Part shown: positions 1 through 16,266 of the stretch, piece by piece
How the letters are laid out: every line of letters begins with the position of its first letter
How positions within the stretch are numbered: the first letter of the stretch is position 1
NCBI GenBank assembly: GCA_937890045.1
Contig: CALBXV010000372.1
Coordinates: 1-17,325 of the forward strand
Direction of reading: 5' to 3'
DNA from: an uncultured archaeon
Lineage (GTDB): Archaea; Thermoproteota; Nitrososphaeria; Nitrososphaerales; CALBXV01
Length of the DNA: 17,325 bases
Translations under genes and position numbers: made by a program
The notes under the pieces: model-generated
What the model was told of the DNA's origin: nothing
The model's database searches: none
Seen by the model: only the letters and a program-made list of their open reading frames with translations

Positions 1-103
1 ACAAGCACCAGTATTAGGTCAAGATTTATCTAGGTTCCAGACCGAATTAGACAAAATAGCAGCGGATTTGGGATGGACAGAAGAAGGACTATGGAATGAA
101 TAA
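1..103 (+). CDS. C-terminal end of an unidentified phage protein (partial)
   Basis: An open frame enters from the left edge (first full codon at position 2) and ends at the TAA at 101-103, leaving 33 visible residues that finish with the acidic tail GWTEEGLWNE. The stop overlaps the start of the next gene (ATGAATAA), and that gene's SD lies inside this frame, which is the usual signature of translationally coupled phage genes. The visible part is predicted helical and carries no recognisable motif. Its position directly upstream of the internal-protein genes suggests a virion component, but this is only context. Confidence 0.6.
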   Translation, partial: QAPVLGQDLSRFQTELDKIAADLGWTEEGLWNE

Positions 104-836
104 AACAATTGCAGATAATCATTTGTCAGAAGGTTCGTTAGGTCGTTTTGGCGATACTGAGATGTATAAGACAAAAAGTGTAAGGCCTGGCTCCGAGTGG
201 CATGTGAACCCTAAAGAGAAGCAATTAATGAATATGCGTGGAGCTGAGGGTGAAAAACTTGTAGATGCAATGGGTTCTGGTACTATTAATCCTTATACTG
301 GCAAGGAAGAAAAGTTCCCATTCATTGCAGCTGCTACTCTTGCTCTGGGTGCGTATTCGGCGTGGAAAGGTGGTCAATCGGCCTCTCAGCATTCACAGTA
401 CGAAAAGGAAACAGCTCAGAGTGGAATTGAGGCCCTTGATTTGTCTGAAGGAGAACTTAGAGAATCAAAAGAATCACAAGAAGGCGCTATTTTTCAGCAG
501 CACTCTATGGATACAGAGAAGCTATCGGCTGAGACAGGCATTAGAAAGGAAGACTTAGACCAGCAGACTGCAACTGCAATACAACAAAGTGGTCTTGCCA
601 CATCTGGCACAATAGAACAAAAAAGGTCAACAGCTTGGGGTAGGATACAAGGTGCTTTTGGGAGAGGTCAGAAGAGTTTAATGGCTTCTCTTGGGGAAAA
701 GATGGGAAAACTTGAAGGATGGTTTGAAGGTGAGATGGCAAGAATTGGTAGTGAGCGGAAGAAGTTTCAGCAAGTAATTGATCTTGCAAAAGAAAAACAG
801 AAATCGTGGTACTTAGGAAAAAATATATTTGGTTAA
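96..836 (+). CDS. Phage virion-associated protein of unknown function, 246 aa, one hydrophobic segment
   Basis: The start is ATG 96, with AAGGA at 84-88 seven bases upstream and an overlap with the stop of the preceding gene. The N-terminal third is polar and contains a GSGTINPYTGKEEKF stretch. A single short hydrophobic, alanine-rich segment follows (about residues 75-90), then a Gln/Glu/Ser-rich, mainly helical region to about residue 190, and a basic, helical C-terminus. There is no signal peptide and no catalytic motif. The layout (short N-terminus, one membrane-seeking helix, long helical tail) and its place three genes before a giant virion-like polymerase fit a small internal or ejection protein. 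That role is inferred from context, and no family name can be assigned from sequence alone. Confidence 0.7.
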   Translation: MNKTIADNHLSEGSLGRFGDTEMYKTKSVRPGSEWHVNPKEKQLMNMRGAEGEKLVDAMGSGTINPYTGKEEKFPFIAAATLALGAYSAWKGGQSASQHSQYEKETAQSGIEALDLSEGELRESKESQEGAIFQQHSMDTEKLSAETGIRKEDLDQQTATAIQQSGLATSGTIEQKRSTAWGRIQGAFGRGQKSLMASLGEKMGKLEGWFEGEMARIGSERKKFQQVIDLAKEKQKSWYLGKNIFG

Positions 837-845: not shown

Positions 846-2087
846 ATGGCAGTTCAAGAAGCAGAACTATTAAGATCAATAAACGCAATATTAGAAAGTG
901 GTGAGCGTAAAAGGGAGTTTGATGTTGCGAAAGCACTCGAGTATATGAAACTAGCTGGGAGCCAGAAAGAAGCTGGGCAAAAAGCAGCTTTACAGTGGAT
1001 GCAGATAAAGCAAGCTAAGAAATTACAGGACGTACAATTAGCAGGAGAATCAATAGATAGGCTAAAAAATACTAATCAACAGATGATGACTGTGCATGCA
1101 AATACCTTTATAGATTTGTCAGGGCTTAACAGATGGTATAATCCTGAAGATGAGGGTTGGCGTGAAGAAATGTTAGACGACTTGCAAGATACTGATTACT
1201 ATGGATTTAATGAAGTCGATGCTTATAGAATAGTTGGGGCTGTTCAGAGCTATTACTTAAAGGAGCCACAGTTTATTCTTGAGATTGCTAGTGATTTAAA
1301 TGCAAAAATGGAAGCTGGTGTTCCAGATTCTTTTGTTAAAGCTTTTGCTAATCCAAAAGGTACAAATATGTTTGTTGGGGAAAAAGCTCAGGACACATAT
1401 CAACATTTAGCGAATGTAGATAAAACGTTGCTGAATGCGGAATTAATTATGGCGGAGGAATTTGAACTTGGTAAGTCTTTGGATGTTGAAATAGATAGAG
1501 ACATTAGTATGGCTGATGTAGTTACTCTTCCTAGTGGAGATGCTACTGACCAAGCAATTGCAGCAGGTACTACAAATGCTCTTTCTAGTCATATTATAAA
1601 AATAAATACGGATATAAAAAGTAAGAAGCAACAGATTACAGCTGAGGAGGAATCATTAGAACAGTTACGTGTCCACATTGCAACAGCCAAGTTATTAAAA
1701 GAGTCAGATCAGGAATTGACTCCATTACAGGAAGATTTAATAGAAAATGAAACAGAAATTATTGGAGAGAGAGAGGACAAAATAGCTGAGTTGTCTCAAC
1801 TAATAGTAGAAGAGACATCAAAGGGTCAGAAAATGAGCCATAAGATGAAAGACGAAGCAATTAGAAGTGGAGAGGTAGCGATGGCACCCCCAGTTATACA
1901 TTTTGGAATAGACCCACTCCAAAAGTTTTGGTATTGGAATAGGACTGGTATATGGCCTTCAGATGAGACTCTTAGAGAAGCAGAAGATGTGGCTCAAGCG
2001 AAACGAGATAAATCATGGCAGCGTATCGAAGAATGGCGGAAAAGGGAGCAAGCAGCGTTTGATGCGCAAGTTGGTAGGAATAGATAA
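846..2087 (+). CDS. Coiled-coil phage protein of unknown function, 413 aa
   Basis: This charged, soluble protein begins nine bases after the upstream stop, with an SD at the right spacing. Residues 1-80 are helical and Lys/Gln/Glu rich. About 80-200 has more aromatic residues and may be globular. About 245-345 shows heptad-like Leu/Ile and Glu/Lys patterning typical of a long coiled coil. The C-terminus (about 350-413) has several Trp residues and ends in a basic/acidic helix. No membrane segment, signal peptide or enzymatic motif is seen. It ends two bases before the giant polymerase-like gene, so it is very probably co-expressed with it. A structural, scaffold-like or ejected internal role is plausible from position, but I do not recognise the family. 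Confidence 0.72.
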   Translation: MAVQEAELLRSINAILESGERKREFDVAKALEYMKLAGSQKEAGQKAALQWMQIKQAKKLQDVQLAGESIDRLKNTNQQMMTVHANTFIDLSGLNRWYNPEDEGWREEMLDDLQDTDYYGFNEVDAYRIVGAVQSYYLKEPQFILEIASDLNAKMEAGVPDSFVKAFANPKGTNMFVGEKAQDTYQHLANVDKTLLNAELIMAEEFELGKSLDVEIDRDISMADVVTLPSGDATDQAIAAGTTNALSSHIIKINTDIKSKKQQITAEEESLEQLRVHIATAKLLKESDQELTPLQEDLIENETEIIGEREDKIAELSQLIVEETSKGQKMSHKMKDEAIRSGEVAMAPPVIHFGIDPLQKFWYWNRTGIWPSDETLREAEDVAQAKRDKSWQRIEEWRKREQAAFDAQVGRNR

Positions 2088-2089
2088 AT

Positions 2090-5000
2090 ATGGCAATAGA
2101 TGCTTTAACTCAGGACTTTTTAGATGAACTCGATAGAAGGTCTGCCGAGTCACTTTCGCCTACAACGGCATTCGCACAAACCAGACAAACTTCAGCTCAA
2201 CAAACTACTGAATCTCTTTGGGAAGCACTAGGTAGGGGAGAGCAACCTGCATGGCTTACGCCTCCAGAAAAGAAATCGGGGGCTGTACATGCAGTTGGTG
2301 CTGCTCTTTGGCACGCTGTTGATACTGCATTATTTTCAATACCATCTCTAGCTCTTGGCATGGACTATTATAAGTGGGAAGAGCTTGGTGGTGGAGCTAA
2401 AGCAGGTGCTGTTTTTGGTGAAGCTCTTGGATTCTTGGCTCCACTCGGAGTAATAGGCAAGGCAACATCTAAAGGCGTAGCTGCTGTTACGAAGTATGGA
2501 ACAAAAGAAGCCACTAAAAGGGCGTCTGGAGCGGCTAAAGCAGTTGCAGAAGCAGCAAAATTAGAAGACGCTGGAATGGTTGGGCCTACTGTTAGTAAGG
2601 TCTTTAAAACAAAAGCTGCTAAAGCTCTTAGACCTCAATATGAACTAAGCATTACAACTCTTGAGGCTGCTCAAGTGAAGATGGGTTCTTTAATCAGAGG
2701 TAGTTTAAAGAAAGAGTTTGCTGAAAAATTTGGAGATGATGTAGTTGAGGAAATGACACAGGCTTCCTTAAAAGGATTGTCTCAAAGGGGAGTTCATGTT
2801 AATAATATAAGCAAATGGGTAGAGAGGTCTTTAAATACAAAATTTAGTGTAGCGGATAGAAGTAAAATAACTCGATATGTTGGAAGGGCTGCTGAATTAA
2901 CTGCTAGTTTTTCATTGTATAATCTTATTGATGACGGTCTTAAATCACAATTAGTTGAGGGGCACAATTTTGATCCAGTAGCTGATGTTGGACATGCTTT
3001 AATGTTCTCAGCTTTCTTACCAGCAGTGGAGGCTTTTCCTTTTGGTGGTAGGATAAAATTCTTTAAGACTCATAAAGACGTAAAGTCTGGTCTTAATAAG
3101 ATTAAGACAATGGATTATCATAACTTAGATATTGATGAAGTCAATGCTTTATTTAAAATAGTATCAAACAATAATAGATTAAAACATTCAACCTTTGCTG
3201 TTGAAGCAAGTAAAAATATTACTAACGTATTTGAAAAGGGTCAAGAAAAACTGGCAGCTAATCATTTAAAATCTTTACTCAGTAATTTTAACCCTGAGAA
3301 AGTTTATCGTGAGATGTATAAACAATTCGGAATGGATTTAGTCAAGTCAATTCCAAGGATGACAATAGGAGCCGCTTATTTTAATTCGTCTACGCTTCTT
3401 GACTCAAACATGTTAAGGAATGTTGACCCTGAAGTGTTAGGTGCTCACTTATTAGTTGGGGCTTTGTTCACAAGAAAATACAAGCCTATTTTACCAGAGA
3501 AGTTTCCAACACTAAATAACTTTGATAGAAAAGTAGAGTTTCTAAGAACCCTTGGGCTTGAATCTGAGCAGATAAAATATCTTGGGGAATCATATGGAGT
3601 GAGAGCAAATATAGGCTATGCGTATATGGGTCTTCTTTCTCATCCTATAATGAGACAAGTTAGTGAAGCGATTAATACTGCTGACAACAAACAACAAAGC
3701 ATAGAAGGCAAGGATGGTGTTGGTGGATTAAATAGTGATGTTCATTCGTTAATACAACAATTACAAAAAGTATATCACTTATCAGAAAACTCGAGAAAAG
3801 TTGGTCTTGAGGATGCCAGAGTTGAACCTGACGTTAGGCTCGATAGGTTGACAGGTGACCAGTTAACGGCAATTGACAAAAAATTAAGATCGATAGAGAT
3901 AAAGGATGGTGAGTTTTTAAATGAACAGAACGTGGCTGAATTTCTGGAGTCTTTAAGTAAAGATTTAACTGATGCTACATTCCAAAATTATATAAAAACT
4001 ATTCTTGGTGGTTTAGGCGACCTAAATGTTAAGACTGATTATAAAGAAACAGCAGATCCATTTGATATAACAAAATCAATAGGTGTTTCAAAGATAAAAG
4101 GATTATCAGGCACAAATGGGGATGCTAATTTTGATCCAATAAGAGAGCTGCATAAGATAATTAACCAATTTGAAGCCATGGGCTTTTTACATGAAATACC
4201 ATTAACAGCAAAAGAAACAAAGATGGCTACTGATATAGATGCAAAAAAAATGGGGCCTAAAGTACAAGACCGTCTTAATAAACTGGTACAAAAGATTAAA
4301 AAAGATAATTATGATCCTGCTACAAGATTCGATATAGAGCCACACGAAAACGAATTTCTTAATGCTCTTAAAAATTATAAGAGTGAACGATCATTAAATG
4401 CATTATACAACTTTGCTGAAGGCAGGATTGATAAGTTAACTGATTCAGACAGGGCTCTTTATAATGATGTGGTAGCATTGATTCCTGAAGGAAAAAAATA
4501 TAATGGAATGAAGATGCCTGAGGGCATGGACCCTAAAACTTGGAATAGGATAATAGTAGAAGGTGATTTCTTAGTAATTGATAATGCCGCTAGAGCTTTG
4601 TCAGAAATGTTAAATATAAGTAGCCGTGGTGAGGTAGAAGCGCTAGGAGAATTAGATTATGGTGAAGTAAAGGGTGTTATAAATAATCTTAAAAGGCATG
4701 GGTTTAAGATTGATGTAGTTACGGCTAGAACCTTTGAACATTTCTATTATAGAAGACTTCTCAGTTCTATGAATATTGGGGCTAAGCACATAGCTATTGC
4801 TAAGAATGGTTTAGGTCACAATGTATTTAGATTAGAACCAAAGAACGGCAAAAGAATTTTAATTGTTATGGATAGAAGGTATGTTAAACAAATATTGTCT
4901 AAAGATATGGACACAGCAGAACTAACAGAGGAAATGAGAAAGTATGACGCCATTATGAGTGAAATGCAAGCTATTAATGGCGCTTTTATGAGCATTGAAA

Positions 5001-8000
5001 AGGAGATGCCATCACATGACACTGCGTCTGCCGACCTACATGACTTTATTTATGAGACACACACCATTACTTCAAAGTTTGATAAAGATGTTCCTGGTGA
5101 GTGGAGAAAAATTAAGAAGGATAATAATGATAGGATTGAAGTTATAGAATCTGTTGACACCATAATAACAGACCTTTTTGATGTTACTGATCCAGAAAAT
5201 CCTGTACCTAAAAAGCTAACTGTTGATGAGGTTAGTGAGTTAAGCGATACATTGAGAGAATTGAAGAAAGAATCAGAATATAATATGTCTCCTGAAATGG
5301 TGCATATGATAGACCAGTTAGTACAAAGATTAAGTCTTAAAAATGTTGGTGAAGATGGCATGATGTCTGCTCATGGAGATCAGTTGTTAGCATTGCAAAG
5401 AGCCTTAACACCAGAGTATATACCAATAAACCATATAAATGAAGTTATCTCAAAAATTATATTTGGATACCAAAACTACGCTAGTGACAAGATACAAGGC
5501 AGAAGAAGGCTAGATGCGTTAGTAGCTGACTTAACAAAACAGTTAAAAGAGGGAGGTATTGAAGTAAGTGGTTCTGACACTCTTAGCCAGATGGTAACTA
5601 AATATTTTAATAGTGGCCTGACTCTTGAACAGAAGATTAAAAGGAACATTGATTTAGACCTTGCAACATTTGCGAAAGAATTGAACAAGCATGTTGACGC
5701 TTGGAATAGTGTAATGTCTGATGCTGAGTGGAGAAGTGGTGTAAAGAAGTGGAGAGATTATTTTGGTGACAGCTCTTTAAAAGATAAGAACGTTGATATA
5801 TTTGCAAAGTCTGGCAAAGAAATAAATAGACTATCTGACCACAATAGTTATTTTAAAGCTGAAGAATTTTCACGAACTAAAGAAGAGTTAAAACTTTCGT
5901 TAATAAAAGAAAAGGAAGTAGGAGATGTGGGTCTAGTAAGATTCTGGATTGATAATATTCTTTCGGAAGCTGAAGTCGCATATAATATAATGCATAGAGA
6001 TTCTCCAGATAAAGCTGCAAAAGAATTTGAGTCTTTTAAGCATTCAGTTGTAAAGGAACTATTGTTTGCATCTGCTGGTTCACACTCAGCTAGGTCTGTA
6101 AAGTTAGTATATGCTGAAACGATAGAAGGCAAACCTACCTATTTATTAACTGAGTCTAGGATGACTACATCTAGTATTGGTGTATCAGAAATTATGAGAG
6201 AGTTTGAAGAAGCTGGTGTATATGTTGCTTTAGTTGAAAATGAAGCTATAATTCTTGGTGATAACGGTATACCAAGAGAAGTAAGTAATGTATTTGCAAT
6301 ACGAGATGTTGATGTAGAGTATTTTAACAATGCTAAACTTCAAGCAACAAGGGATTCTACTAAAGAGAGGATGGAATCTGATAGTGAAGTAATTAGACCT
6401 ATAGGGCCTGAGGTAATAAGGATTCCTATAAGTTTTAATACACAGTTAGTTATTGATAGTAGAGGAGTGGGTAATTCTAGGGAAGTTTTCAGAGGATGGT
6501 ACAATGATAAGCTATCAAAATTAGAAGAAGGTAGGGCAGAGGGAGTAATAAGTAAAGAAATCATAGATAACTTTAAATCATTATTTAGTGTTATAGAAAA
6601 AGAAGGTGAATTAAATACATCTCAATTAGAAGTGTTTGTTAGTTCCATGTACTGGGATAAGATGAACAGTGCAGCATTTAATAGACTAATGAAAAATCCA
6701 ACAACTGGTAGTGAAATAAATCCTACAATGGCGGCCTTGTTTAAGTATCTTAGTCTTGGTGAAGGAGTCGGGGCTAAAATAGCTGGTAATGATATTGCAT
6801 TAAGAGCTATAAGAAGAGCGAATGAAAGTGGCAAATATGCTGGAGAGTTATTAACAACATTACAAGACAATGTTATTGATTATTATTTAGATAAAGGAAA
6901 ACTTGAAATTGTATCTATTCAAGATGAAGCAGGCCATTTTAATTCATCTGCAATAGTTAAAGATAGGTTAGAAGAATTGGAGGCAATTGAAAGTGTGAGG
7001 GCTGACGCAGCATATACTAAAAATATGGCTGAAGATATAATGAGGAGTTTAAAAGACAAGTCTGCTGTTGACGGAGCAACTTATGTTGGAACAAATATGT
7101 GGCATCTATCATTATTGCAGGAAGGAAGGGAATCTGGTGATGGTTCTGGTGGTGTAAAACAGTCTATTGCTTATAATGATGGTATAAATACTGTGCTTTT
7201 AAAACAGAACTTTACATTTAATCCACGTATTGCAGCTAAATTGGATGGTCTTGGCATAGATATTTTAACATTTAATAGCGCAGCTAAAGAATATTCAAAA
7301 GAACAAGTTACACCTCATAAGAATTGGAAAGGAGAGCCACTTCCAGAATTTTTTAGTAGGTCTCTTGGTCAGACTAAGGAAGCTTCTAAGAAGTTAAGAA
7401 CTGATGGAAAAGTACAGGACATAAGTATAGAGAACATTATGTTTGTTAAGTCAGAGGATAGACATGCTGTTACAAATATTACATATGCATTAGATGAGTA
7501 TTTACATGATGTCGGACATACACAGTTTATGAAAGATTATGCTAATTATGATATGGTACTAGGTCCTGGCAATGAATTATTAAGAGGTATCGTTAATCGT
7601 GGTTCTCAAAGACTAGGTATATCTGATTTTATTCTTAATACACTAACTGAAAAAGGAGATATAATTGACGGGTCAACTAATGCATTTGTAAAAGTTATGG
7701 TCACTGCTGGTATGGACCCTAGGTCCGATCTTGTAAAGGATGACATTAATAGAATTGTTCATAGGACTATAATTGGTAAAATAAGAAAACCTCAAACAGA
7801 GTATGGTTCGTATTCTACAATGATACCATTCCTCGATGGTGCAATGCCTGTATACAGCAGGGCTGGTAAACAAGTTAGGTTTGGTGGAAAGAAGCTTCCA
7901 CATGCTGACAGCACGCAAAAAATTGATAATATGGATAAACTTCAATATATAGTTGATCTTGGAGGCAGGGAACTTCTTGTTGGTAAAAATGCAAATGCTA

Positions 8001-10726
8001 AATGGGATAATATTAATTTAAAGAAAGAAGATTTATCTAAGAATGAGATAAAGATACTAAAGGAAAAGATGAGTGTTCTTGAGAGAATAAATAAGAGTCA
8101 AGGATTATCATTAGGTAAATTGACAGCGATACTTGAACCACATAATATGTGGATTAACTCTTTAAGTTTAAGGATGCCAAACTTAGCTGCTGATGTTGTT
8201 GTTCATAAAGTAGAAGGATTTTATTCACCTGAAATGGGTAATGTTGTTGGTATAAATGTCCTTGATTTAGCAACTAAACACCAAGGCGACTTTGATGCTG
8301 ACATGGCTTTTAGTTATCACGATACAAAGTTTGAATTAACTGATGCCGTAGCCAGTCTTGTTCCAAGAAGGATGGATGCATATGTATATGACCCAACAGA
8401 CTTTGATTTTTCAGATATTTTTAGCAACGGTGAAACATTAAAGTCAGTTGGTAGTGTTACAAGCCCGATAAGGAGAATGGATGATCATGTAGCAAACTAT
8501 AATACTGCTAAGAATCATTTTGGGCAAATAAAAAGGTTGTCAGCAGGTGTTAATTCATTGAATAGAATTAATATGAATATGGATAATAAAAAGATGTTAG
8601 AACTTGAAGGAGAAATATTCAATGCATACTTACAGAGATATGCAAATAATCTTCAAAGCTTAATTGACACTACAAAGAGGTCTAATCTTACTAATAAGTC
8701 AACAATTAAAGAGTTAAAGAGATATATATTATTTGGTGATAAGCCTAGTAATTATACTGTAAAAGCAGAAGATTACAACGAGCAGGGGTATAAGTCTGTA
8801 TTTAATTTGAAGGAAATAACGGATGTTCATACGAAAGATGTTTATAAAGATGCTATAGTAGAAATAATTGATGCTCTTGGAAGGCCTTCTCGTATTATGA
8901 GCGACTTGTTTGATGGTTCGGGTAGGAGAATACCAGACCAAAATGATTTATTGAGGATGAGACAAGAACTAGATAAGATTGCATTTAGCCCTAGCCAGTA
9001 TATATTTAATCGACTTGTTCGCAGATATAAAAGGGATGACGCTAAGAGAGACGCACTATTAAAAATGTTCTACGACTTTCCCGAGGGAACTACTACTGAG
9101 TCATTAAGGAAAAGAATATTACAAGGAAAATTTAAGACAACAGTAGCGGTAGAAAAGACTCCATTTAGCTTTTTGGGGGAATGGAAAATTAGACAAGGAG
9201 AGTTATATGATTCTACTCCAGCAGGTTATACTCTAAAGAGAATAGGTAATGTTAAAAATACATATGATAGAGTAGCTCAGAAACATGGAGTGGAGGTAAA
9301 AGAACTAGCAAGGAGTATTGATGCTATTGAAAATTTTATTGTACTATCTGACGCTGAAACGCATGAGTCCATCATGGAAGCCTTAGGGGAAGCTGATGGT
9401 GAGGGTCAACTTACATTTGGTCTTACTGGTGGACAATACGAAACACAAATAACAGACTTAGCATATGTCCAGAGGTATTCACTATCGTATGAATTGCTTG
9501 GTAGGAATGCATCTAGTATAAGAAAATCATTACGAAGCAATCGCAAGGGTAGTGATTCTGTTTATTTAGTTCAAAAGCTTCGGCGGTTAAATGCTATTAG
9601 AGAACACATGAGGAATAAAGAAGATGGTTTAATTGGTAAACTATTATCGGGGGAAGCTGGTGAGAAAATATTAAATCATTTTAAATTTCGAGAACATATA
9701 ATAGGTGGAAGAGGTGTTAAAGGCAGATATATACCGAATAATTCTAATGACAGAAACTTTATATATAGAGAAACTAGTACTAAAGGAAAGTGGTCACCAG
9801 CTGGGGAGATAAGACCGAAGTCACAGAGGTGGATGACTCCTGGCAGATATGTAATTTTAATGAATCCATTAAGATATGATCGTTTAAGTAAGTCTGAGAC
9901 TATTGATGCATACTCATTATTATCTGTTTTTGGTGATATTGAGGCAAATAATATTAGAGGATTTTCTGGAGAGACTATGCAGGAGATTCGTTTTATTGAT
10001 GATTCGAGGGCATTAAAGGGTCGAATAAGCGCATTGTCTAGTGAAGCATATAGAGCAAGTGAGGGTCATCCACAAGCATCTGAGAACTGGACCTTATTGA
10101 AAGAGTCTGAAGATATGCTTGTTGATGTGTTTATGAAAAAATATATACCAAGTGTTGAGTTTTCTGAACCGTTAACATTTCAACAAGAACTAAACACAAT
10201 ACATGATATTATTGGTTATATGATGAAGCCAGACCCTGTGTTTGGCAATGTTACATATATTCCAAATAGGAATGTTGCGTTGCCATCTCTTAAAATAAAC
10301 AAAAGAGTATCAAGAGCTATGTTAAGATGGTTAGTAAACAATGGACATGAAGAGATGTACCAAGATATTGTAATGAAGTATGGCTCAACATATAGACGTA
10401 GATATGATAATGTACCTGACTTGGAATATACATCCATGTATTCGGATGGTATATATAGAGAAAGGAATACACCATTTGAAGTTAAGTCTGAGGTATACAA
10501 CTTAATTGCTGAGACTAATCCTGACTTTTTATATCATCCAGCTATCAAAGAAGTATTAAAGGATGAAATGACATTTAGAAGTGCTAAAACAAGACAGGTT
10601 CGTGATCCTAACGGAGACGTTTATAGAATCTTAAGGTTTGGCAAGTATGATGATATTGAGGTTGGCTTTGATATATTTGCTGACCCTAAATCAAACGAAT
10701 CAACAAGCAACATGGATTGTTACTAA
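2090..10726 (+). CDS. Giant (2,878 aa) probable virion RNA polymerase of the single-chain two-barrel type, with N-terminal membrane-seeking region
   Basis: Start ATG 2090 is two bases after the upstream stop, with a weakly spaced AGGA at 2076-2079. Residues 1-60 are polar. Hydrophobic/Ala-Gly-rich segments lie at about 65-91, 102-135 and 268-320. Residues about 320-1650 are helical, charged and unrecognised. Residues 1661-1738 look like a first double-psi barrel, opening with DGATYV and holding K1690, K1705 and K1733 (in FNSAAK). Residues 2014-2078 look like the second barrel, with RMPNL at 2028 and the metal motif DFDAD at 2067-2071. A G2145-I...I2192-D-T-T-K2196 block follows. In two-barrel RNA polymerases (cellular beta/beta', QDE-1-type, YonO, crAss-like phage enzymes) the DxDxD aspartates bind catalytic magnesium and barrel-1 lysines sit at the active site. 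I infer a DNA-dependent RNA polymerase packaged in the capsid and ejected with the genome to transcribe early genes. The C-terminal 680 residues should hold the bridge-helix and trigger-loop equivalents, but I could not place them. It is not a T7/N4-type enzyme. Confidence 0.75.
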   Translation: MAIDALTQDFLDELDRRSAESLSPTTAFAQTRQTSAQQTTESLWEALGRGEQPAWLTPPEKKSGAVHAVGAALWHAVDTALFSIPSLALGMDYYKWEELGGGAKAGAVFGEALGFLAPLGVIGKATSKGVAAVTKYGTKEATKRASGAAKAVAEAAKLEDAGMVGPTVSKVFKTKAAKALRPQYELSITTLEAAQVKMGSLIRGSLKKEFAEKFGDDVVEEMTQASLKGLSQRGVHVNNISKWVERSLNTKFSVADRSKITRYVGRAAELTASFSLYNLIDDGLKSQLVEGHNFDPVADVGHALMFSAFLPAVEAFPFGGRIKFFKTHKDVKSGLNKIKTMDYHNLDIDEVNALFKIVSNNNRLKHSTFAVEASKNITNVFEKGQEKLAANHLKSLLSNFNPEKVYREMYKQFGMDLVKSIPRMTIGAAYFNSSTLLDSNMLRNVDPEVLGAHLLVGALFTRKYKPILPEKFPTLNNFDRKVEFLRTLGLESEQIKYLGESYGVRANIGYAYMGLLSHPIMRQVSEAINTADNKQQSIEGKDGVGGLNSDVHSLIQQLQKVYHLSENSRKVGLEDARVEPDVRLDRLTGDQLTAIDKKLRSIEIKDGEFLNEQNVAEFLESLSKDLTDATFQNYIKTILGGLGDLNVKTDYKETADPFDITKSIGVSKIKGLSGTNGDANFDPIRELHKIINQFEAMGFLHEIPLTAKETKMATDIDAKKMGPKVQDRLNKLVQKIKKDNYDPATRFDIEPHENEFLNALKNYKSERSLNALYNFAEGRIDKLTDSDRALYNDVVALIPEGKKYNGMKMPEGMDPKTWNRIIVEGDFLVIDNAARALSEMLNISSRGEVEALGELDYGEVKGVINNLKRHGFKIDVVTARTFEHFYYRRLLSSMNIGAKHIAIAKNGLGHNVFRLEPKNGKRILIVMDRRYVKQILSKDMDTAELTEEMRKYDAIMSEMQAINGAFMSIEKEMPSHDTASADLHDFIYETHTITSKFDKDVPGEWRKIKKDNNDRIEVIESVDTIITDLFDVTDPENPVPKKLTVDEVSELSDTLRELKKESEYNMSPEMVHMIDQLVQRLSLKNVGEDGMMSAHGDQLLALQRALTPEYIPINHINEVISKIIFGYQNYASDKIQGRRRLDALVADLTKQLKEGGIEVSGSDTLSQMVTKYFNSGLTLEQKIKRNIDLDLATFAKELNKHVDAWNSVMSDAEWRSGVKKWRDYFGDSSLKDKNVDIFAKSGKEINRLSDHNSYFKAEEFSRTKEELKLSLIKEKEVGDVGLVRFWIDNILSEAEVAYNIMHRDSPDKAAKEFESFKHSVVKELLFASAGSHSARSVKLVYAETIEGKPTYLLTESRMTTSSIGVSEIMREFEEAGVYVALVENEAIILGDNGIPREVSNVFAIRDVDVEYFNNAKLQATRDSTKERMESDSEVIRPIGPEVIRIPISFNTQLVIDSRGVGNSREVFRGWYNDKLSKLEEGRAEGVISKEIIDNFKSLFSVIEKEGELNTSQLEVFVSSMYWDKMNSAAFNRLMKNPTTGSEINPTMAALFKYLSLGEGVGAKIAGNDIALRAIRRANESGKYAGELLTTLQDNVIDYYLDKGKLEIVSIQDEAGHFNSSAIVKDRLEELEAIESVRADAAYTKNMAEDIMRSLKDKSAVDGATYVGTNMWHLSLLQEGRESGDGSGGVKQSIAYNDGINTVLLKQNFTFNPRIAAKLDGLGIDILTFNSAAKEYSKEQVTPHKNWKGEPLPEFFSRSLGQTKEASKKLRTDGKVQDISIENIMFVKSEDRHAVTNITYALDEYLHDVGHTQFMKDYANYDMVLGPGNELLRGIVNRGSQRLGISDFILNTLTEKGDIIDGSTNAFVKVMVTAGMDPRSDLVKDDINRIVHRTIIGKIRKPQTEYGSYSTMIPFLDGAMPVYSRAGKQVRFGGKKLPHADSTQKIDNMDKLQYIVDLGGRELLVGKNANAKWDNINLKKEDLSKNEIKILKEKMSVLERINKSQGLSLGKLTAILEPHNMWINSLSLRMPNLAADVVVHKVEGFYSPEMGNVVGINVLDLATKHQGDFDADMAFSYHDTKFELTDAVASLVPRRMDAYVYDPTDFDFSDIFSNGETLKSVGSVTSPIRRMDDHVANYNTAKNHFGQIKRLSAGVNSLNRINMNMDNKKMLELEGEIFNAYLQRYANNLQSLIDTTKRSNLTNKSTIKELKRYILFGDKPSNYTVKAEDYNEQGYKSVFNLKEITDVHTKDVYKDAIVEIIDALGRPSRIMSDLFDGSGRRIPDQNDLLRMRQELDKIAFSPSQYIFNRLVRRYKRDDAKRDALLKMFYDFPEGTTTESLRKRILQGKFKTTVAVEKTPFSFLGEWKIRQGELYDSTPAGYTLKRIGNVKNTYDRVAQKHGVEVKELARSIDAIENFIVLSDAETHESIMEALGEADGEGQLTFGLTGGQYETQITDLAYVQRYSLSYELLGRNASSIRKSLRSNRKGSDSVYLVQKLRRLNAIREHMRNKEDGLIGKLLSGEAGEKILNHFKFREHIIGGRGVKGRYIPNNSNDRNFIYRETSTKGKWSPAGEIRPKSQRWMTPGRYVILMNPLRYDRLSKSETIDAYSLLSVFGDIEANNIRGFSGETMQEIRFIDDSRALKGRISALSSEAYRASEGHPQASENWTLLKESEDMLVDVFMKKYIPSVEFSEPLTFQQELNTIHDIIGYMMKPDPVFGNVTYIPNRNVALPSLKINKRVSRAMLRWLVNNGHEEMYQDIVMKYGSTYRRRYDNVPDLEYTSMYSDGIYRERNTPFEVKSEVYNLIAETNPDFLYHPAIKEVLKDEMTFRSAKTRQVRDPNGDVYRILRFGKYDDIEVGFDIFADPKSNESTSNMDCY
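7070..7303 (+). other. Candidate first double-psi beta-barrel (lysine barrel) of the giant RNA polymerase
   Basis: These are residues 1661-1738 of the 2,878-aa protein. The block starts with DGATYV, runs through a Gly-rich stretch to K1690, then VLLKQNFTF with K1705, and closes with GIDILTF followed by NSAAK (K1733). The order (DG + beta strand, Lys on a strand, G-x-D-hydrophobic strand, S-x-x-K) is what I know of the first barrel in single-chain two-barrel polymerases, where two lysines approach the nascent RNA and NTP. The assignment is by motif reading, without a computed alignment. Confidence 0.65.
8129..8323 (+). other. Candidate second double-psi beta-barrel with DFDAD catalytic motif
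   Basis: These are residues 2014-2078. SLRMPNL (R2028), followed by alternating hydrophobic strands (ADVVVHKV, NVVGINVLDL) and then QGDFDADMAF, reproduces the layout of the catalytic barrel: an R-x-P, about 40 residues of strands, then a DxDxD. The same layout occurs in beta' (DFDGD) and in QDE-1-type RNA-dependent polymerases. The three aspartates D2067, D2069 and D2071 would chelate Mg2+. The usual fourth-position Gly is Ala2070, and crAss-like phage enzymes also vary here. Confidence 0.75.
8516..8686 (+). other. Post-catalytic block resembling the G-I...avD-K segment of QDE-1-type polymerases
   Basis: These are residues 2143-2199: HFGQI, about 45 mostly helical residues, then LQSLIDTTKRSN. 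Eukaryotic cell-encoded RNA-dependent RNA polymerases carry a comparable LGxI ... L..AVDxxKxG block shortly after the DxDGD motif. Its presence about 75 residues after DFDAD supports the polymerase reading independently of the barrel motifs. The similarity is short and judged by eye. Confidence 0.5.
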
Positions 10727-13470
10727 TGGCTTGTGCAGTATTAACAAAAGAACAAAAGTTTACAAAAGAACATCTAGGAACTTTAAGAAAGCTATTTGAT
10801 GGTGGTACGATAAAAGATATTGACGGCAAGACAAGGTCTATTGGAGATTCCTTAAGCGGTTCGCATCGTTATGGGCCTACTTCTGAAGAGTTTGGTGGTA
10901 TGATGTTTAATGAAATTGTTTGGCGTTCAACATATAAGCCTGCTGATGAAGCGTTTTCTAATTTTACTGAAGGTGATATTAGGCGTGTTGCAAATGAGAT
11001 AGAAAAAGAAGCAAAGAGAATGGACAATCCAAAGTTGAGTGTTTTAGAAAGATTTGGGTTTGTTAAGCGTGGTGTAATGGGAAAGTTTGCAGTAACAAGA
11101 TGGATGAATAAAGGTATTACCCTCGGGTCAAACTATGAGAGAACAAAGTTCTCAATGTATATATCATCTAATACACTAATAGCACAACACTTAAGAGCTG
11201 AAAGCATCCTTAGAGAACCATCATTAGAGAATAAACTACCTGGTTTAAAATCAGCAAGAGAGTTAGAAAAATTTGAAAGAAGGTTAGTGTATGAGATACA
11301 AAAACTTGATAGTTTAGAAAAGGGTGAAGAATACAATAAGAAAGATAAGGAAATATCTGAATTAAGGAATGAGATTGGAGCTGTTCTTGCAACTAAAGGC
11401 GGTGAAGTGTTAAGTGAAATGGTAGAATGGTTAGAAGCTACACCAGAAATTGCAGACAAATATAATGAGAAATATGGTACGATAGATTGGGGTGTTAGGT
11501 TAAGAACAAAAGAAGGGCTGGATAAGAATGGTAGGGAGATAAAGGGAACTAGGTTTTCAAAGAATATAGAAAAAGCTGGGATTGAAGCAAGACAGTTGTT
11601 AAATAATATGGGCGAAGTTCTTGTTAATGGTTTAAACCAACATAAGAAAGCTATTAAACTATCATACAATGAATTATCTACATTAAGATTAAGTAGATAC
11701 CTTAAAAGTATTGATGAGCATATAGTTAGTATAGAAAAAGGAGTGGAAAAAGGAAATTATTTTCCACATTATATCACAGAGGGACTTGCTTCTATTGAAA
11801 AAGTTATGGATAAAATTGATAGAGCTGATACTATGTCTGCAAAGGATGGGTTCTTAGGTGACTTAGAGAGTGCATTTTCAATTGTTAGAGAGTCTATTGG
11901 TTCTCTTCCACCATCTGTTATGGGTAGGAGTAGGTTTAAATATGAAAATTGGCTAAAGAATCCTTTAACTGTATTAAGAAAATATTCAATGGATGCAATA
12001 GCTTTTAATAGAACAAACCATTTAAAGGCTGTTTACTTAAAAGGAATGAAGAGACTTCCCAAAGAAGGTGATCTTGCTAGAGGATTAAACGATTATCTGA
12101 ATGATGTGTTTACACTTGCTGGTCGTGGTTATAAAGATAGACCTAACTGGGTTAATAAAACAGTGAGAGTGTTAACAGGGTATGAGTTCTTTTCTAAGAT
12201 TGGGTTTGGAGTTGCGACTGCCGCAAGAAATACAATGTCAGGGTTATATTTTATACAGGGAGTGGGCAATCGTGCTTTCTATGGATATTTAAGAGATTTA
12301 AATAAAGGTGGAGAGAGAAATGATGAGATTAGGAAAATTCTAGGAAAGATAGAGAGCGAGCAGGGGTTTAGGTTTGAAGACTTGTCTAACCCACTGTTTA
12401 CAGAAGGTCTACTACCTACTGAAGGTTTGCGTGTTGATAACGTTGATATTATATTCGATCCTCAAACTCAAAAACCGTCACTGCAATATAAAAATGAAAA
12501 GGGATGGCAAACATTTGATAGCATATTAACAAGGGCAACTGGAGCTGGTGCTATTTTGCAAAAGGTTACTGAGAACTTCCTTAGAAAACATATGTTTAGG
12601 TATTCATTTAAACAAAAGTACAGTGAATTGAGAGATGGTGGCATCACTAAGAGTAAAGCTACTAATATTGCTAAAGAATATGCTCTTGATATGGTAAATA
12701 AATATGCGTTTGAATATTCTGCATCTCAAAAAGCTCCTATTATAGGTGGAACTGGTAAGAACCTTGGAGCTGCTGGTCAAGTTGCTTTTCAGTTCATGCA
12801 CTTTCCGATGTCATTCTTACAATTACAATCAGAAATATTAAGAAATTCTAAAGATGCTGTAATTGCAAGACAATGGAATAATCCAGACTTATTAATACCG
12901 ATTAAGTTTGCAGGCTTATATTTATTTACACAATTAATGAGCGGTATAGGTAATGTTGATTTTAACAGGTTAATGGAAAATGATACAGTAGATAGAATAA
13001 AAGATTTAAAAGATGCTGTTGAAGGTAAGAAAGATATTAAAGGTAGAGGGTATATAGGCCCTGCTGTTGGTGATTTGTTTTTCTTAGCAAGTCTGAAAGA
13101 ATGGATTGAATTTCCAGACAATGTTGTTTCAGATATGGTAGTTGGATATAATAATGCATATAAGTTAACAGATGAACAAAAAGGTATGAGATTACTGTCT
13201 ACGTTTAATGTTGAGATGGCAAAGGTGCCAAGAAACTGGAAAGCTTTACAGAATGGTACAATATGGAATGTTTTAATGCATGAGTTTGGATTATATCCAA
13301 AGGCATGGACTCGTGACATGAGAGCTAAGGCTCCTATTAAATATTTACCTTGGGTAAAGAAGAAGAAGAGGAAGAAGAAGAAAGAAAAAACAGAAGCTCA
13401 ATTGCAATTAGAAATTGAAAAGATAAGGCAATTAGAGTTGACTAAATTATACAGATCGATGGGAATATAG
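10726..13470 (+). CDS. Large phage virion-type protein, 914 aa, with hydrophobic segments and Lys-rich tail
   Basis: I choose ATG 10726 because it overlaps the giant gene's stop as TAATG. A TTG three codons earlier also lies in frame but has no SD, so reinitiation coupling is likely. Residues 1-480 are helical and highly charged. Hydrophobic or amphipathic stretches lie at about 496-515 (following FFSKIGFGVATAA), 721-742 (PIKFAGLYLFTQLMSGI) and 777-795. A run of eight Lys and one Arg lies at 878-886 of a basic stretch reaching 888, followed by a Glu/Leu/Lys helix to the end. This mixture is typical of large internal or polyvalent phage proteins ejected with DNA. The Arg-Asn plus hydrophobic region near 500 is reminiscent of large-polyvalent-protein-associated domains, which I cannot confirm. 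A partner of the polymerase in DNA delivery is inferred from adjacency, overlap and composition. No enzymatic motif is seen. It ends 3 bp from the convergent minus-strand gene. Confidence 0.75.
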   Translation: MACAVLTKEQKFTKEHLGTLRKLFDGGTIKDIDGKTRSIGDSLSGSHRYGPTSEEFGGMMFNEIVWRSTYKPADEAFSNFTEGDIRRVANEIEKEAKRMDNPKLSVLERFGFVKRGVMGKFAVTRWMNKGITLGSNYERTKFSMYISSNTLIAQHLRAESILREPSLENKLPGLKSARELEKFERRLVYEIQKLDSLEKGEEYNKKDKEISELRNEIGAVLATKGGEVLSEMVEWLEATPEIADKYNEKYGTIDWGVRLRTKEGLDKNGREIKGTRFSKNIEKAGIEARQLLNNMGEVLVNGLNQHKKAIKLSYNELSTLRLSRYLKSIDEHIVSIEKGVEKGNYFPHYITEGLASIEKVMDKIDRADTMSAKDGFLGDLESAFSIVRESIGSLPPSVMGRSRFKYENWLKNPLTVLRKYSMDAIAFNRTNHLKAVYLKGMKRLPKEGDLARGLNDYLNDVFTLAGRGYKDRPNWVNKTVRVLTGYEFFSKIGFGVATAARNTMSGLYFIQGVGNRAFYGYLRDLNKGGERNDEIRKILGKIESEQGFRFEDLSNPLFTEGLLPTEGLRVDNVDIIFDPQTQKPSLQYKNEKGWQTFDSILTRATGAGAILQKVTENFLRKHMFRYSFKQKYSELRDGGITKSKATNIAKEYALDMVNKYAFEYSASQKAPIIGGTGKNLGAAGQVAFQFMHFPMSFLQLQSEILRNSKDAVIARQWNNPDLLIPIKFAGLYLFTQLMSGIGNVDFNRLMENDTVDRIKDLKDAVEGKKDIKGRGYIGPAVGDLFFLASLKEWIEFPDNVVSDMVVGYNNAYKLTDEQKGMRLLSTFNVEMAKVPRNWKALQNGTIWNVLMHEFGLYPKAWTRDMRAKAPIKYLPWVKKKKRKKKKEKTEAQLQLEIEKIRQLELTKLYRSMGI
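13356..13390 (+). repeat. 35-nt homopurine tract with tandem AAG units
   Basis: This uninterrupted A/G run is built mainly of AAG triplets and encodes residues 878-888 (Lys/Arg with one Glu) of the 914-aa protein. It makes a basic tail likely to bind DNA or the capsid. Triplet repeats like this can vary in length between relatives. Confidence 0.6.
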
Positions 13471-13473
13471 AGA

Positions 13474-13662
13474 TTACTCTATTGTAAATGTTAAATTAAT
13501 TCTTGCTTTTTTAAACATTGACAATGAAAACATTGTATATGTTGATGATACTTCCACAGTTACTGAGATAAAAATGAATTTTATTGTTACAAATTTAGCA
13601 GCTCTTTTTCTTTCATTAAATTCACCAGTTGCTATAAACATATAATTATTTCCTATCGTCAT
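13474..13662 (-). CDS. Small protein of unknown function, 62 aa
   Basis: The ATG at 13662 has a near-perfect SD (AAAGGAGGA, 13667-13675) five bases upstream, inside the resolvase gene, and the coding region overlaps the resolvase stop by 17 bases. A longer in-frame start at 13701 lacks an SD and is rejected. The protein begins MTIGNNYMFIATGEF. It has alternating hydrophobic/polar residues in its second half (KFIFISVTVEV, INLTFTIE), suggesting a small beta-rich fold rather than a membrane helix. No motif is recognised. It is the last gene of the minus block and stops three bases from the end of the convergent plus-strand gene. Confidence 0.62.
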   Translation of the reverse strand: MTIGNNYMFIATGEFNERKRAAKFVTIKFIFISVTVEVSSTYTMFSLSMFKKARINLTFTIE

Positions 13663-14158
13663 TATTTCCTCCTTTATCTCTGATAAATAAATAGTTAGCA
13701 ATTAGTAATGCATCGCATGTTTTAAGTGTAGCCTTATCATCTATTTTTTTTGCTATTTCTTTAAGTCTTCTTTTTCTATCTTGTTTATTCTTGGGTAATG
13801 GGGCGTACATTTTCATCCATTTCTGAGGTGAAACCTTTTCATGTTCTATTTTTAAAGTTCCAAGTATACCAATCCAGATACCATAGTTAGTACCAAACTT
13901 AAATGCGGCGCTTCTTGCATCAGTTGGAAAGCTCCACACGTGTTCTATAACTGCTATAATTTTATTTCCTCCAATCAATCCTTTGTTTCTAACTGAAAAA
14001 ATTATGTTAGCCATATCTTCAGTGGAGTCTGGACAGTTGTACAGCTTTGTACTAAAAGGAGGCCTATCAGAATAACTGACAACTGCCACTCCACCAGATT
14101 TACCTGGATCAATTGCTACTATTATTTTATCTTTCAGAAAATCTACACTTGTTTCCAT
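13646..14158 (-). CDS. RuvC-like Holliday junction resolvase, 170 aa
   Basis: This is an RNase H-fold endonuclease that cuts four-way or branched DNA, as phages need before packaging replicated DNA. IIVAIDPGKSGG supplies the first acidic residue (D17), AVIEHV supplies E72, and the C-terminal TLKTCDALLIANY helix supplies D149. Between them, AAFKFGTNYGIWIGIL and the VSPQKW segment are typical of the compact phage/bacterial RuvC branch, and the length is normal. The ATG at 14158 follows GGTAGGATTTG; a TTG one codon earlier is possible. It overlaps the helicase gene's end by 32 bases and hosts the SD of the 62-aa gene. In this operon it probably debranches replication and recombination intermediates. 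Confidence 0.88.
   Translation of the reverse strand: METSVDFLKDKIIVAIDPGKSGGVAVVSYSDRPPFSTKLYNCPDSTEDMANIIFSVRNKGLIGGNKIIAVIEHVWSFPTDARSAAFKFGTNYGIWIGILGTLKIEHEKVSPQKWMKMYAPLPKNKQDRKRRLKEIAKKIDDKATLKTCDALLIANYLFIRDKGGNNDDRK
13667..13675 (-). promoter_or_regulatory. Ribosome binding site of the 62-aa gene
   Basis: AAAGGAGGA on the minus strand, with five bases between GGAGG and ATG 13662. It decides the start and is the main evidence that this small gene is real. Confidence 0.7.
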
Positions 14159-15419
14159 CAAATCCTACCATATGGTTACCTATTTGGCCGTACCTACTTT
14201 TTGCAGCAACTATCATACACTCTTTTTCATCGTATTCAAATCTATCTACTGCGTATCCATAGAATACAAACAGTGCAGTTTCAGCAGTTTGTTCTATTAC
14301 TCCACTTTCAGCATAGTCACTCATCTTAGGGATAGGATTATCTCTCTTTTCTATCTCTCTATTCAACTGACTAATTAAGAATGCTGTGCAGTTTGAAGTC
14401 TTACACACCCACTTATAATCATACATTATCTTCTCAATCTCAAACCTTCTACCTTCTTGTGCTCCTTCTGCTTTAATCAGTTGAATGTAATCATCAATTA
14501 CTATATCAGGACGATGTTTCATGACCTCTCTTAATGAATCATCTAATCCTCTAATATCATCATACATCATAAGCTTCTTGTACTTTACCTTGATTATATC
14601 TTTAACAGAATCAATTTCTGCGAGTTCTTTGATAGTTAAATCGTGTTTTCTTACTTTATCATAGGATAAGGTATCGCTTTCGATAACTAATAGCTTTTTG
14701 AGCATTTCTACATTACTCATTTCCCTATTAAATAACATCACTTTATACCCTTGTTCTATAAGACTTTTTATTATGTTAAGCATTAGTGTTGTCTTACCAT
14801 GTCCTGGTCTACCACCTAGAACTGTAACTTCTTTCCTTGTCATTCCCCCAGCTGGTGCATCTAATGCAGGTATTCCAAATGGGATTATATTTGTTCCTTC
14901 TTTTAATGTTTCAGCTGTCTCCTCTATTATAATACTGATATCACGCATCTTAGTAGGCTGTAATTCTCTTAACTCTTCTACTAATCTACTATGTTTCTCA
15001 AGGATCTTTGAAGTTTGATTATAATCACTATAACTCATCCTTAGAATATTACTGGCACTTGTAGCACACTCTCTTTGAACATGTTTCTCCCATATTATCT
15101 TTGCATAATGTTCTAAGTTACCATCAGTAACTGTGTCTGCAACTAATCCTGTTAGATAATATCCGTATTCACCCTTTCTACCGTGCTTCTCGTTACATCT
15201 GTTAACAACTGTTACTACTTCAATTGGTTCTCTTTGTTTATACATATTAGACATAACTTTCCAAACATTTTGAGGCTTATCATAATAAAATGCTTTATTC
15301 TTTCTTATCCAAGATGCAGCTCTATCAAAAGCATCAAGGCCTCCATATAAAACACAGCCTATTAAGGCTTCTTCAGCTTCTTCGCTAGCTGGAAGAGCCT
15401 CCATTATATTGTCTGTCAT
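14127..15419 (-). CDS. dnaB: DnaB-family replicative DNA helicase, 430 aa
   Basis: This is a hexameric 5'-3' fork helicase. Residues about 10-110 match the helical DnaB N-terminal domain, with ASEEAEEALIGCVL at the start. A linker follows, then a RecA-like motor: Walker A GGRPGHGKTT (202-211), the acidic residue in LFNREMS (E233), Walker B DIVIDDYIQL (305-314), the SQLNREIEKR stretch with the following DYAESGVIEQTAE segment, and a final strand with KSRYGQIG (arginine-finger/loop region). All core motifs are intact, and the length is close to bacterial DnaB. ATG 15419 has GGGAGG six bases upstream; the longer frame to 15437 has no SD. The first 35 bases overlap the methyltransferase gene. No primase is visible in the window, so priming must come from elsewhere in the genome or from the host. 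Confidence 0.92.
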   Translation of the reverse strand: MTDNIMEALPASEEAEEALIGCVLYGGLDAFDRAASWIRKNKAFYYDKPQNVWKVMSNMYKQREPIEVVTVVNRCNEKHGRKGEYGYYLTGLVADTVTDGNLEHYAKIIWEKHVQRECATSASNILRMSYSDYNQTSKILEKHSRLVEELRELQPTKMRDISIIIEETAETLKEGTNIIPFGIPALDAPAGGMTRKEVTVLGGRPGHGKTTLMLNIIKSLIEQGYKVMLFNREMSNVEMLKKLLVIESDTLSYDKVRKHDLTIKELAEIDSVKDIIKVKYKKLMMYDDIRGLDDSLREVMKHRPDIVIDDYIQLIKAEGAQEGRRFEIEKIMYDYKWVCKTSNCTAFLISQLNREIEKRDNPIPKMSDYAESGVIEQTAETALFVFYGYAVDRFEYDEKECMIVAAKSRYGQIGNHMVGFDGNKCRFSER

Positions 15420-16266
15420 TTTCAACCTCCCTATCAAATATCTCAGTTTGAGACATTGGTTCGTAGTTCATTATTACAAGTTCACTTACTACTTTTTTAA
15501 TCGCACTCCCTGCATACATAGTCTCTATTGTTCTTATATTATAATCTTTATACAAATCTTTTATGACCTTTTTATCATCGTAACTCACCATGAATTTAGC
15601 TCCTAAATTATTTATATCATCACATTTTTTTACAAGTGCTTCGTGCATTTCCATGTTAAAATCATGGTAGTAGTATGTTCCTTTCTCTCCTGCTACTACA
15701 TATGGTGGATCAAAGTACCACATGTCTCCTTCTTGAGCTTTATACTTATCTATAAACTTTCTAAAGTCTAAGTTTTCTATTAAGGCACCTTCTAAATGTT
15801 TTCTTGATTGGATTAACTCATCTTTTAAATTATGTCTCCAATCCTTTTTAGGAGCTGAACTCATTGGGTTATAAGGATTTTTATTAAATGAATTTCTTAT
15901 TATATAATAGTACAAACATGCTCTTCTTACATCAGGAACATTAATTTCCTTAGATGACATTATATGTTCTTTTGCTTCAGTAAATGTTTTTCTTGATCTA
16001 GGCACCCAAAATATAAACTCACAAAATTCATCAAAGTGATCAAGAACTACCATATACAGATTTACTATATCATTATCTATATCATTTACTACACTATTCT
16101 TTGACTTCTTTTTTCTAAAGAACATACTTAAACCGCCAGCAAACACTTCTAAATATCTATCATGTGGTGCTAGCATTGGAATCAATTTCTTACTCAGTTC
16201 AAACTTACCTCCATAGTATGGAATAACTACAGGACAGTCTCTCCATATTAATGTTTCAATCATCAT
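15385..16266 (-). CDS. dam: Dam-like (D12 class) DNA adenine-N6 methyltransferase, about 293 aa
   Basis: This enzyme transfers a methyl group from S-adenosylmethionine to adenine N6 in DNA. Motifs appear in the order of the Dam/D12 (alpha-type) class: PYYGGKFELSKKL (motif X, 16-28), YLEVFAGGLSMFF (motif I, 38-50), VVNDIDNDIVNLY (motif II, 59-71), a helical target-recognition region (about 80-175) and the catalytic WYFDPPY (183-189). The start is uncertain: ATG codons at 16266 and 16263 lie in the 61-aa gene's stop region without a good SD, and a GTG at 16293 also lies in frame. Coupling to the upstream gene is likely. GATC is the usual target of this class, but specificity is not proven here. 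No partner restriction enzyme is seen, so self-protection or replication/packaging control is more likely. Confidence 0.88.
   Translation of the reverse strand: MMIETLIWRDCPVVIPYYGGKFELSKKLIPMLAPHDRYLEVFAGGLSMFFRKKKSKNSVVNDIDNDIVNLYMVVLDHFDEFCEFIFWVPRSRKTFTEAKEHIMSSKEINVPDVRRACLYYYIIRNSFNKNPYNPMSSAPKKDWRHNLKDELIQSRKHLEGALIENLDFRKFIDKYKAQEGDMWYFDPPYVVAGEKGTYYYHDFNMEMHEALVKKCDDINNLGAKFMVSYDDKKVIKDLYKDYNIRTIETMYAGSAIKKVVSELVIMNYEPMSQTEIFDREVENDRQYNGGSSS
15426..15431 (-). promoter_or_regulatory. Ribosome binding site of the dnaB-like gene
   Basis: GGGAGG six bases before ATG 15419, located inside the 3' end of the methyltransferase gene. It selects the 430-aa form. Confidence 0.7.

Follow-up and report, generated by a model that had tools for sequence, protein, structure and literature searches.

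The window, that is, the whole 17,325-nucleotide stretch of DNA that was analysed, carries a run of genes on its forward strand. A cysteine-free 246-aa protein (96..836) is followed by a cysteine-free 413-aa protein (846..2087), a giant protein of 2,878 aa (2090..10726) and a partner protein (10726..13470), which is 914 aa long from the ATG at 10726 and 917 aa from an earlier TTG at 10717. The 246-aa protein recurs ahead of the giant in relatives and, from its position, is probably a small ejection or internal virion protein; the 413-aa protein is, also by position, a probable ejection protein. The reverse strand encodes a Holliday junction resolvase (13646..14161; phrog_1770), a DnaB-like replicative helicase (14127..15437; PF03796, phrog_19) and a D12-class adenine methyltransferase (15385..16293; PF02086, phrog_56), and the resolvase gene is convergent to the virion block. 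The original prediction had described a virion-type block convergent to replication genes, which the open reading frames (ORFs) of the window, their family matches and the relatives bear out. The order of small ejection-type genes, polymerase, another large protein and then convergent replication genes is also found in cr55_1 and cr125_1, and in this the window resembles crAss-like phages with a fused polymerase.

No notable family match to the giant was found in Pfam or PHROGs, and none was found in PDB sequences or phage records. Against PDB sequences, profile A1 drew 17 matches at E up to 10 (best 0.015), which were designed proteins and others with no polymerase among them, and profile A4 drew none. 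The 917-aa form of the partner has no relative in Pfam, PHROGs, PDB sequences or phage records. A polymerase of the T7/N4 type was rejected, as no T7-like or other known RNA polymerase family appeared in Pfam or PHROGs at E up to 1. Genome contigs were also searched for relatives with A3 and A5, and none was present among 593 and 33 pattern matches respectively.

A database search for the giant returned a family of 41 proteins, one of which is 99% identical to the window protein. The family alignment consists of the window protein and the other 40 (41 rows), with identity to the window protein down to 24%. Nine rows from virus contigs were added to it, of which L014 is the farthest (21% identity) and some may duplicate database proteins. 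Relatives in IMG/VR comprise 14 distinct contigs found via the giant, one more via the giant core (L053), and L071 via the partner. The gene clusters that recur in the longer contigs are those of the 246-aa protein, the 413-aa protein, the giant, the partner, the resolvase, DnaB, the methyltransferase and C8, a cluster whose member in the relative G010 matches DUF932. Full-length members of the partner family close to the window (10717-13470) share a conserved C-terminus resembling ELTKLYR[AS]MG[IV], which is absent in L014 and is perhaps a docking peptide.

Marker genes for the phage lineage sit in relatives and the window itself has none, a point that was counted against the lineage reading of the polymerase. 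In G010, a 51.7-kb relative, the terminase matches phrog_38, the portal gives strong matches to phrog_156 and P22_portal, and the capsid matches SU10_MCP. In crAss001, the terminase matches phrog_6681 and the capsid phrog_11589 and Crass_capsid; the best match of its portal is phrog_6547, with phrog_156 also found (E 6e-9) and P22_portal below the cut-off. The portals of G010 and crAss001 thus appear to be distant kin. Neither the terminase nor the major capsid of G010 belongs to the Crassvirales families, and membership of Crassvirales was ruled out by the terminase and capsid of the relatives. The lineage is uncultured and has a P22-type portal; judged by terminase and capsid, it lies outside Crassvirales. 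Since the terminase and capsid are not of the crAss type, a crAss-type polymerase would here belong to another lineage, and the proviso of the original prediction, by which virion two-barrel polymerases extend to another lineage if the phage is not crAss-like, applies. Among phage records, the best 20 of 382 matches to the G010 terminase have 24-25% identity, the G010 portal has two matches at 27-28% identity, and its capsid has none.

The giant contains two motif blocks in a fixed order. The first, a counterpart of the barrel DPBB-B, covers residues 1640-1760 (7007..7369, forward strand) and includes the invariant lysines K1690 (7157-7159), K1705 (7202-7204) and K1733 (7286-7288), which align with lysines of gp66 from Cellulophaga phage phi14:2 (gp077 in the GenBank record). 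A linker motif, RKPQTEYGSYSTMIP (7784..7828, forward strand), corresponds to KLKTNGGSF of gp66. The second block, a counterpart of DPBB-A, extends from R2028-x-P2030 to the DFDAD motif at residues 2067-2071 (8171..8302, forward strand), with R2028 at 8171-8173, P2030 at 8177-8179 and DFDAD at 8288-8302. The prediction had located R-x-P and DFDAD correctly, and its gap of about 330 residues between K1733 and DFDAD agrees with the 334 residues counted from K1733 to D2067. For the first block it was right about K1705 and K1733, but the 'DG' from which it started the block at residue 1661 is no family feature, the consensus there being NAQ.

In the family alignment, K1690, K1705, N1707, D1724, K1733, P2030, N2031, Q2065, D2067, D2069 and D2071 are invariant (41/41 rows), and R2028 is conserved in at least 90% of the rows. 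With the nine virus-contig rows added, K1690, K1705, K1733, P2030, D2067, D2069 and D2071 are still invariant in 50/50. DLDGD takes the place of DFDAD in three of 42 proteins (P0001-P0042), and arginine at -39 together with proline at -37 from the first aspartate is found in 38 of 41 own rows and in 82/82 crAss-like rows. By 50-residue bin, conservation is highest at 1651-1750, 1901-1950, 2001-2100 and 2251-2300. The invariance of the three aspartates, P2030 and the lysines across distant members indicates that the motifs are more than chance. The conserved lysines K1690, K1705 and K1733 are residues that we take to be among the catalytic ones. The DxDxD motif is catalytic in two-barrel polymerases (PMC10770324). 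Polymerase makes up only the smaller part of the chain, whose sequence is very far from known polymerases, as would be expected if the giant were a former polymerase that is now inactive and purely a structural ejection protein; nevertheless, invariant DxDxD aspartates and three invariant lysines in 41/41 and 50/50 rows are unexpected in a dead enzyme and make such a descent highly improbable.

When the profile of the giant family was compared with that of 82 diverse crAss-like virion polymerases, a probability of 95.4 was obtained (E 1.8e-8, score 79.7, 432 columns). The score of 79.7 compares with 17.9 ± 2.5 (maximum 26.1) in 60 column shuffles, and the controls gave 19.5-25.7 for four other slices of the giant, 18.6 for the partner family and 21.1 for a reversed profile. 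The score was still 52.1 (E 4e-5) with DxDxD masked and 61.6 (E 2.6e-6) with the divergent rows L014 and L071 left out. A chance motif was ruled out by this comparison with shuffles and controls. The crAss-like set had been grown stepwise; near relatives of gp66 gave a weak signal or none, and 66 and then 82 varied sequences gave a clear one, the score for 66 being 41.2 against 18.4 ± 3.1 (maximum 28.8) in 100 column shuffles.

Several results were counted against the polymerase reading. The window protein as a single sequence scored only 31.0 (probability 6), and narrow gp66 profiles overall gave probabilities of 0.4-10; the HMM and ungapped-profile searches below, the partner's lack of homology to the crAss downstream protein, the weak match of the N-terminal part and the missing repeated early promoter belong here too. 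Whole regions of near gp66 relatives gave a probability of 2.6, and an 18-member gp66 alignment gave 0.5, in the same register, against the giant's own profile, both in comparisons run without a shuffle control. With the narrow gp66 set, two of five pieces failed to exceed column shuffles (maximum of 30 in each case): the scores were 27.4 against 21.6 for linker plus second barrel, 21.5 against 21.2 for the second barrel, 30.5 against 26.3 for all, 30.2 against 31.3 for both barrels, and 13.3 against 16.8 for the first barrel alone, which gave no signal. Searches with hidden Markov models (HMMs), in which reversed decoys served as control, brought none of 121 crAss entries to E < 1e-3; the second-barrel profile had a best E of 0.022 against 0.48 for the best reversed decoy, but neither the first-barrel nor the joint profile outdid the decoys. 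In the reverse search, L014 was top among the own proteins (0.013 versus 0.079 for the best decoy). When an ungapped profile was used with DxDxD masked, the site came first over other positions in just two of 41 proteins; in the window protein it ranked 60th of 2,822 positions.

The 82-sequence alignment pairs K1690, K1705 and K1733 with K1012, K1027 and K1065 of gp66, which are invariant in 18/18 crAss members; RKPQT-x-x-GSYS falls opposite KLKTNGGSF, DFDAD opposite DFDID, and the R-x-P motifs of the two sides coincide. When both groups were aligned jointly with MAFFT, K1690, K1733, P2030 and the aspartates were shared by 18/18 own and 82/82 crAss-like rows, and R2028 by 17/18 and 82/82, while the K1705 column holds lysine in only 12 of the 82 crAss-like rows. 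In a midpoint-rooted tree, the 18 own sequences group as a single clade with support 1.0, separate from the 82 crAss-like sequences. The prediction had read two barrel-like blocks in one chain, and at the level of sequence homology both motif blocks do align, in order, with crAss-like virion polymerases. The diverse crAss-like set gave a profile match; YonO, P23-45 gp64 and P23-45 gp96 as single sequences did not match the own profile. On this evidence, the giant is supported as a distant relative of the crAss-like virion RNA polymerase, with its predicted two-barrel core set between an N-terminal and a C-terminal part.

The solved two-barrel enzyme phi14:2 gp66 (PDB 6VR4; PMC10770324) resembles the giant in several respects. 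Its core motifs are collinear with those of the giant in one profile alignment, both are large virion-type proteins that lie next to further giant virion proteins and show facing terminal cysteines, and in both cases the gene order ends convergent to replication genes. Unlike gp66, the giant falls in its own clade (18/18 rows) with the upstream part fused, the markers of its phage, taken from relatives, are not those of Crassvirales, and its 914-aa partner shows no recognisable homology with the downstream protein of crAss-like phages (probability 0.8). In Fpv2 (a Flavobacterium phage) and cr55_1, as in the giant, a long part precedes the core in one chain with a C-terminal cysteine, and a downstream partner has an N-terminal cysteine. 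Their polymerases are longer than the giant, at 4,401 and 4,551 aa, and the N-terminal part of the giant matches the fused crAss N-terminal parts weakly (probability 18, E 0.0014). The record taxonomy of Fpv2 (KU599878, L077) is not Crassvirales, and the only cysteine of its 4,401-aa crAss-type fused polymerase is residue 4400.

Virion two-barrel polymerases were already known from crAss-like phages and from Thermus phage P23-45 (PMC10770324). In P23-45 gp96, a two-barrel polymerase is likewise fused to a giant virion protein, the tape measure (PMC10770324), but it lies at the N-terminal end, has no cysteine and belongs to a long-tailed phage, and its single sequence has no profile match. SPbeta YonO and P23-45 gp64 are, like the giant, single-chain polymerases with DxDxD, but they are not virion-borne giants. 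The virion RNA polymerase of N4 is also a giant injected polymerase with no internal cysteine; it differs in lacking terminal cysteines, and has a T7-like fold (PMC10747016). Two-barrel polymerases of a non-virion type, such as P23-45 gp64, are known (PMC10770324), and the giant might similarly be made inside the infected cell and not injected. This is improbable: the giant gene lies on the structural strand among small cysteine-free ejection-type genes, in relatives it adjoins tail-side genes away from the convergent replication genes, and its product has the long N-terminal fusion and the cysteine rule of virion-carried crAss-like polymerases.

The giant is thus very probably a crAss-like (gp66-type) virion RNA polymerase, with both double-psi barrels in one chain, that is packed in the capsid and injected to transcribe early genes; carriage in the virion and early-gene activity are suggested by the gene position and the cysteine pattern. 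It would be packed in the capsid together with its partner, both would pass through the tail, and the polymerase would enter ahead of or with the DNA. The core would then refold inside the cell and start early transcription on the incoming DNA. The long N-terminal part ahead of the core probably serves ejection.

C2877 (10718..10720, forward strand) is the sole cysteine codon of the giant gene, and Cys 3 (10732-10734, forward strand) is the single cysteine of the partner. Exactly one cysteine, at most four residues from the C-terminus, is present in 41 of 42 family proteins (P0001-P0042); in the remaining one, P0008, the end differs and there are zero cysteines. Fourteen of 15 ORFs in the partner family contain exactly one cysteine; it lies at residues 3-10 in 12 ORFs and, in two with a start called too early, at residue 36, and the L014 partner has three, one at residue 7. 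The cluster of 413-aa proteins ahead of the giant is cysteine-free in 11/11, and that of the 246-aa protein has a single cysteine across 15 proteins. In the same phages, the cysteine content is 1.5% for DnaB and 1.3% for the methyltransferase.

A similar distribution was found in crAss-like phages. Among the best 120 of 661 crAss-like polymerases, 101 have cysteines within both the first eight and the last seven residues but nowhere else. The phi14:2 polymerase has Cys 3 and Cys 2179 in a chain of 2180 residues; gp78 of this phage terminates in its sole cysteine, and that of gp76 is Cys 3. In crAss001, the single cysteines of gp47 (2341 residues) and gp49 are Cys 2339 and Cys 5, respectively, and the polymerase (2412 residues) combines Cys 5 and Cys 2404 with an internal one. 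Further counts were made on the best 80 of 463 IMG/VR loci (L083-L162), several of which are near-duplicates, so that the counts are not independent events; a polymerase ORF was found in 77 of the 80 and, by pattern, none in L103, L104 and L140. Within this best 80 of 463, an N-terminal cysteine is present in 49 of 50 unfused polymerases and a C-terminal one in 43 of 45 of their upstream proteins, versus 1 of 18 and 0 of 14 (preceding protein) where the polymerase is fused upstream. At the downstream junction in these loci, a C-terminal cysteine is present in 62 of 64 polymerases and an N-terminal one in 61 of 64 partners, counts that omit polymerases with at least 1,700 residues past DxDxD, e.g. 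L159, which has no C-terminal cysteine. The exact pattern with zero other cysteines is seen there in 41/48 polymerases, 43/45 upstream and 53/61 downstream proteins, and the cysteine content of the module is 0.06-0.08% as against 0.58% in 389 other ORFs of crAss-like loci. cr125_1 was omitted from the cysteine reading because of its many in-frame stops under the standard code.

Fused polymerases differ according to the side of the fusion. Those fused upstream (Fpv2, cr55_1) have no N-terminal cysteine and a C-terminal one that faces the partner, and those fused downstream (cr271_1, C0521BD4) keep the cysteine pair at the upstream junction. The window follows the fused-upstream pattern, the giant being without an N-terminal and with a C-terminal cysteine, and the partner having an N-terminal one. 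As facing terminal cysteines are absent at fused junctions, we infer that disulfides link the injected parts in a chain; the position of the cysteines mainly at partner-facing ends in both phage groups suggests bonds joining the parts. The virion polymerases of crAss-like phages and of this lineage would accordingly be delivered as disulfide-stitched chains, from which internal cysteines have been removed and in which one is kept per partner-facing end, a reading that is modestly favoured. Head-to-tail disulfides would arise in the particle and preserve the order of the parts during ejection, until the reducing cytoplasm opens them. In the window phage, a disulfide between C2877 and partner Cys 3 would keep giant and partner in order and open on reaching the cytoplasm.

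For the cysteines alone, other roles are quite possible, if not preferred: they might be left over from split inteins, form a metal site or attach the protein to some other part of the virion. The disulfides are predicted here from sequence, and crAss-like phages are rich in inteins (PMC7886860), but an intein relic leaves the C-terminal cysteine of the upstream protein unexplained, and a metal site would be poorly served by one cysteine per end. Some gut crAss-like phages (cr126_1, cr271_1, C0521BD4) keep the terminal cysteines of polymerases and partners and have several internal ones too, and an 857-aa protein of C0521BD4 (MW067000.1; L079 2551-5124) that does not adjoin the polymerase ends Cys-Arg and is otherwise cysteine-free, which is unexplained by the junction rule. 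Against such roles, the cysteines occur in facing pairs and are absent on both sides of a fused junction. In crAss001, furthermore, the C-terminal cysteine of gp47, its only one, has a counterpart at the start of the polymerase; as the two genes are non-adjacent and on opposite strands, neighbouring DNA does not explain the pair. N4 vRNAP, T7 gp15, T7 gp16 and P23-45 gp96 are cysteine-free, as was already published for N4-type polymerases (PMC10747016); thus, injected giants more broadly lack internal cysteines, but the facing terminal pair is not so widespread.

Facing terminal cysteines were not mentioned in the literature searched, to which the primary gp66 paper (Nature 2021) did not belong; by term, there was no mention in the portions covered of PMC10172136, PMC7886860, PMC8954989, PMC10925440, PMC10136315 and PMC10770324. 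Partial unfolding during ejection has been proposed (PMC10172136), with no tether for polymerase parts in the portion of that source covered. The cysteine rule offers a directly testable idea of how several very large polymerase parts are kept together, partly unfolded, through a phage tail. What appears to be new in the lineage itself is a crAss-type virion polymerase outside Crassvirales, which would make the trait older or more mobile than one order.

A few minor observations were also made. The annotated start of the C0521BD4 polymerase looks too early, with its cysteine at residue 24: in MW067000.1 (L079 13631), the CDS starts ILLYISHR and the first cysteine is residue 24, and the true start is probably about 20 codons later. 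In the scanned subset of proteins from the relatives G005, G009, G010 and G012 (pieces L017-L028), terminase, portal, capsid, exonucleases, DnaB, resolvase and methyltransferase were found, but neither a DNA polymerase nor a further RNA polymerase was among them. A k-mer search of four relatives for a repeated early promoter gave nothing clearly above shuffles except AAGGAGAGA in L007, which resembles a ribosome-binding site.
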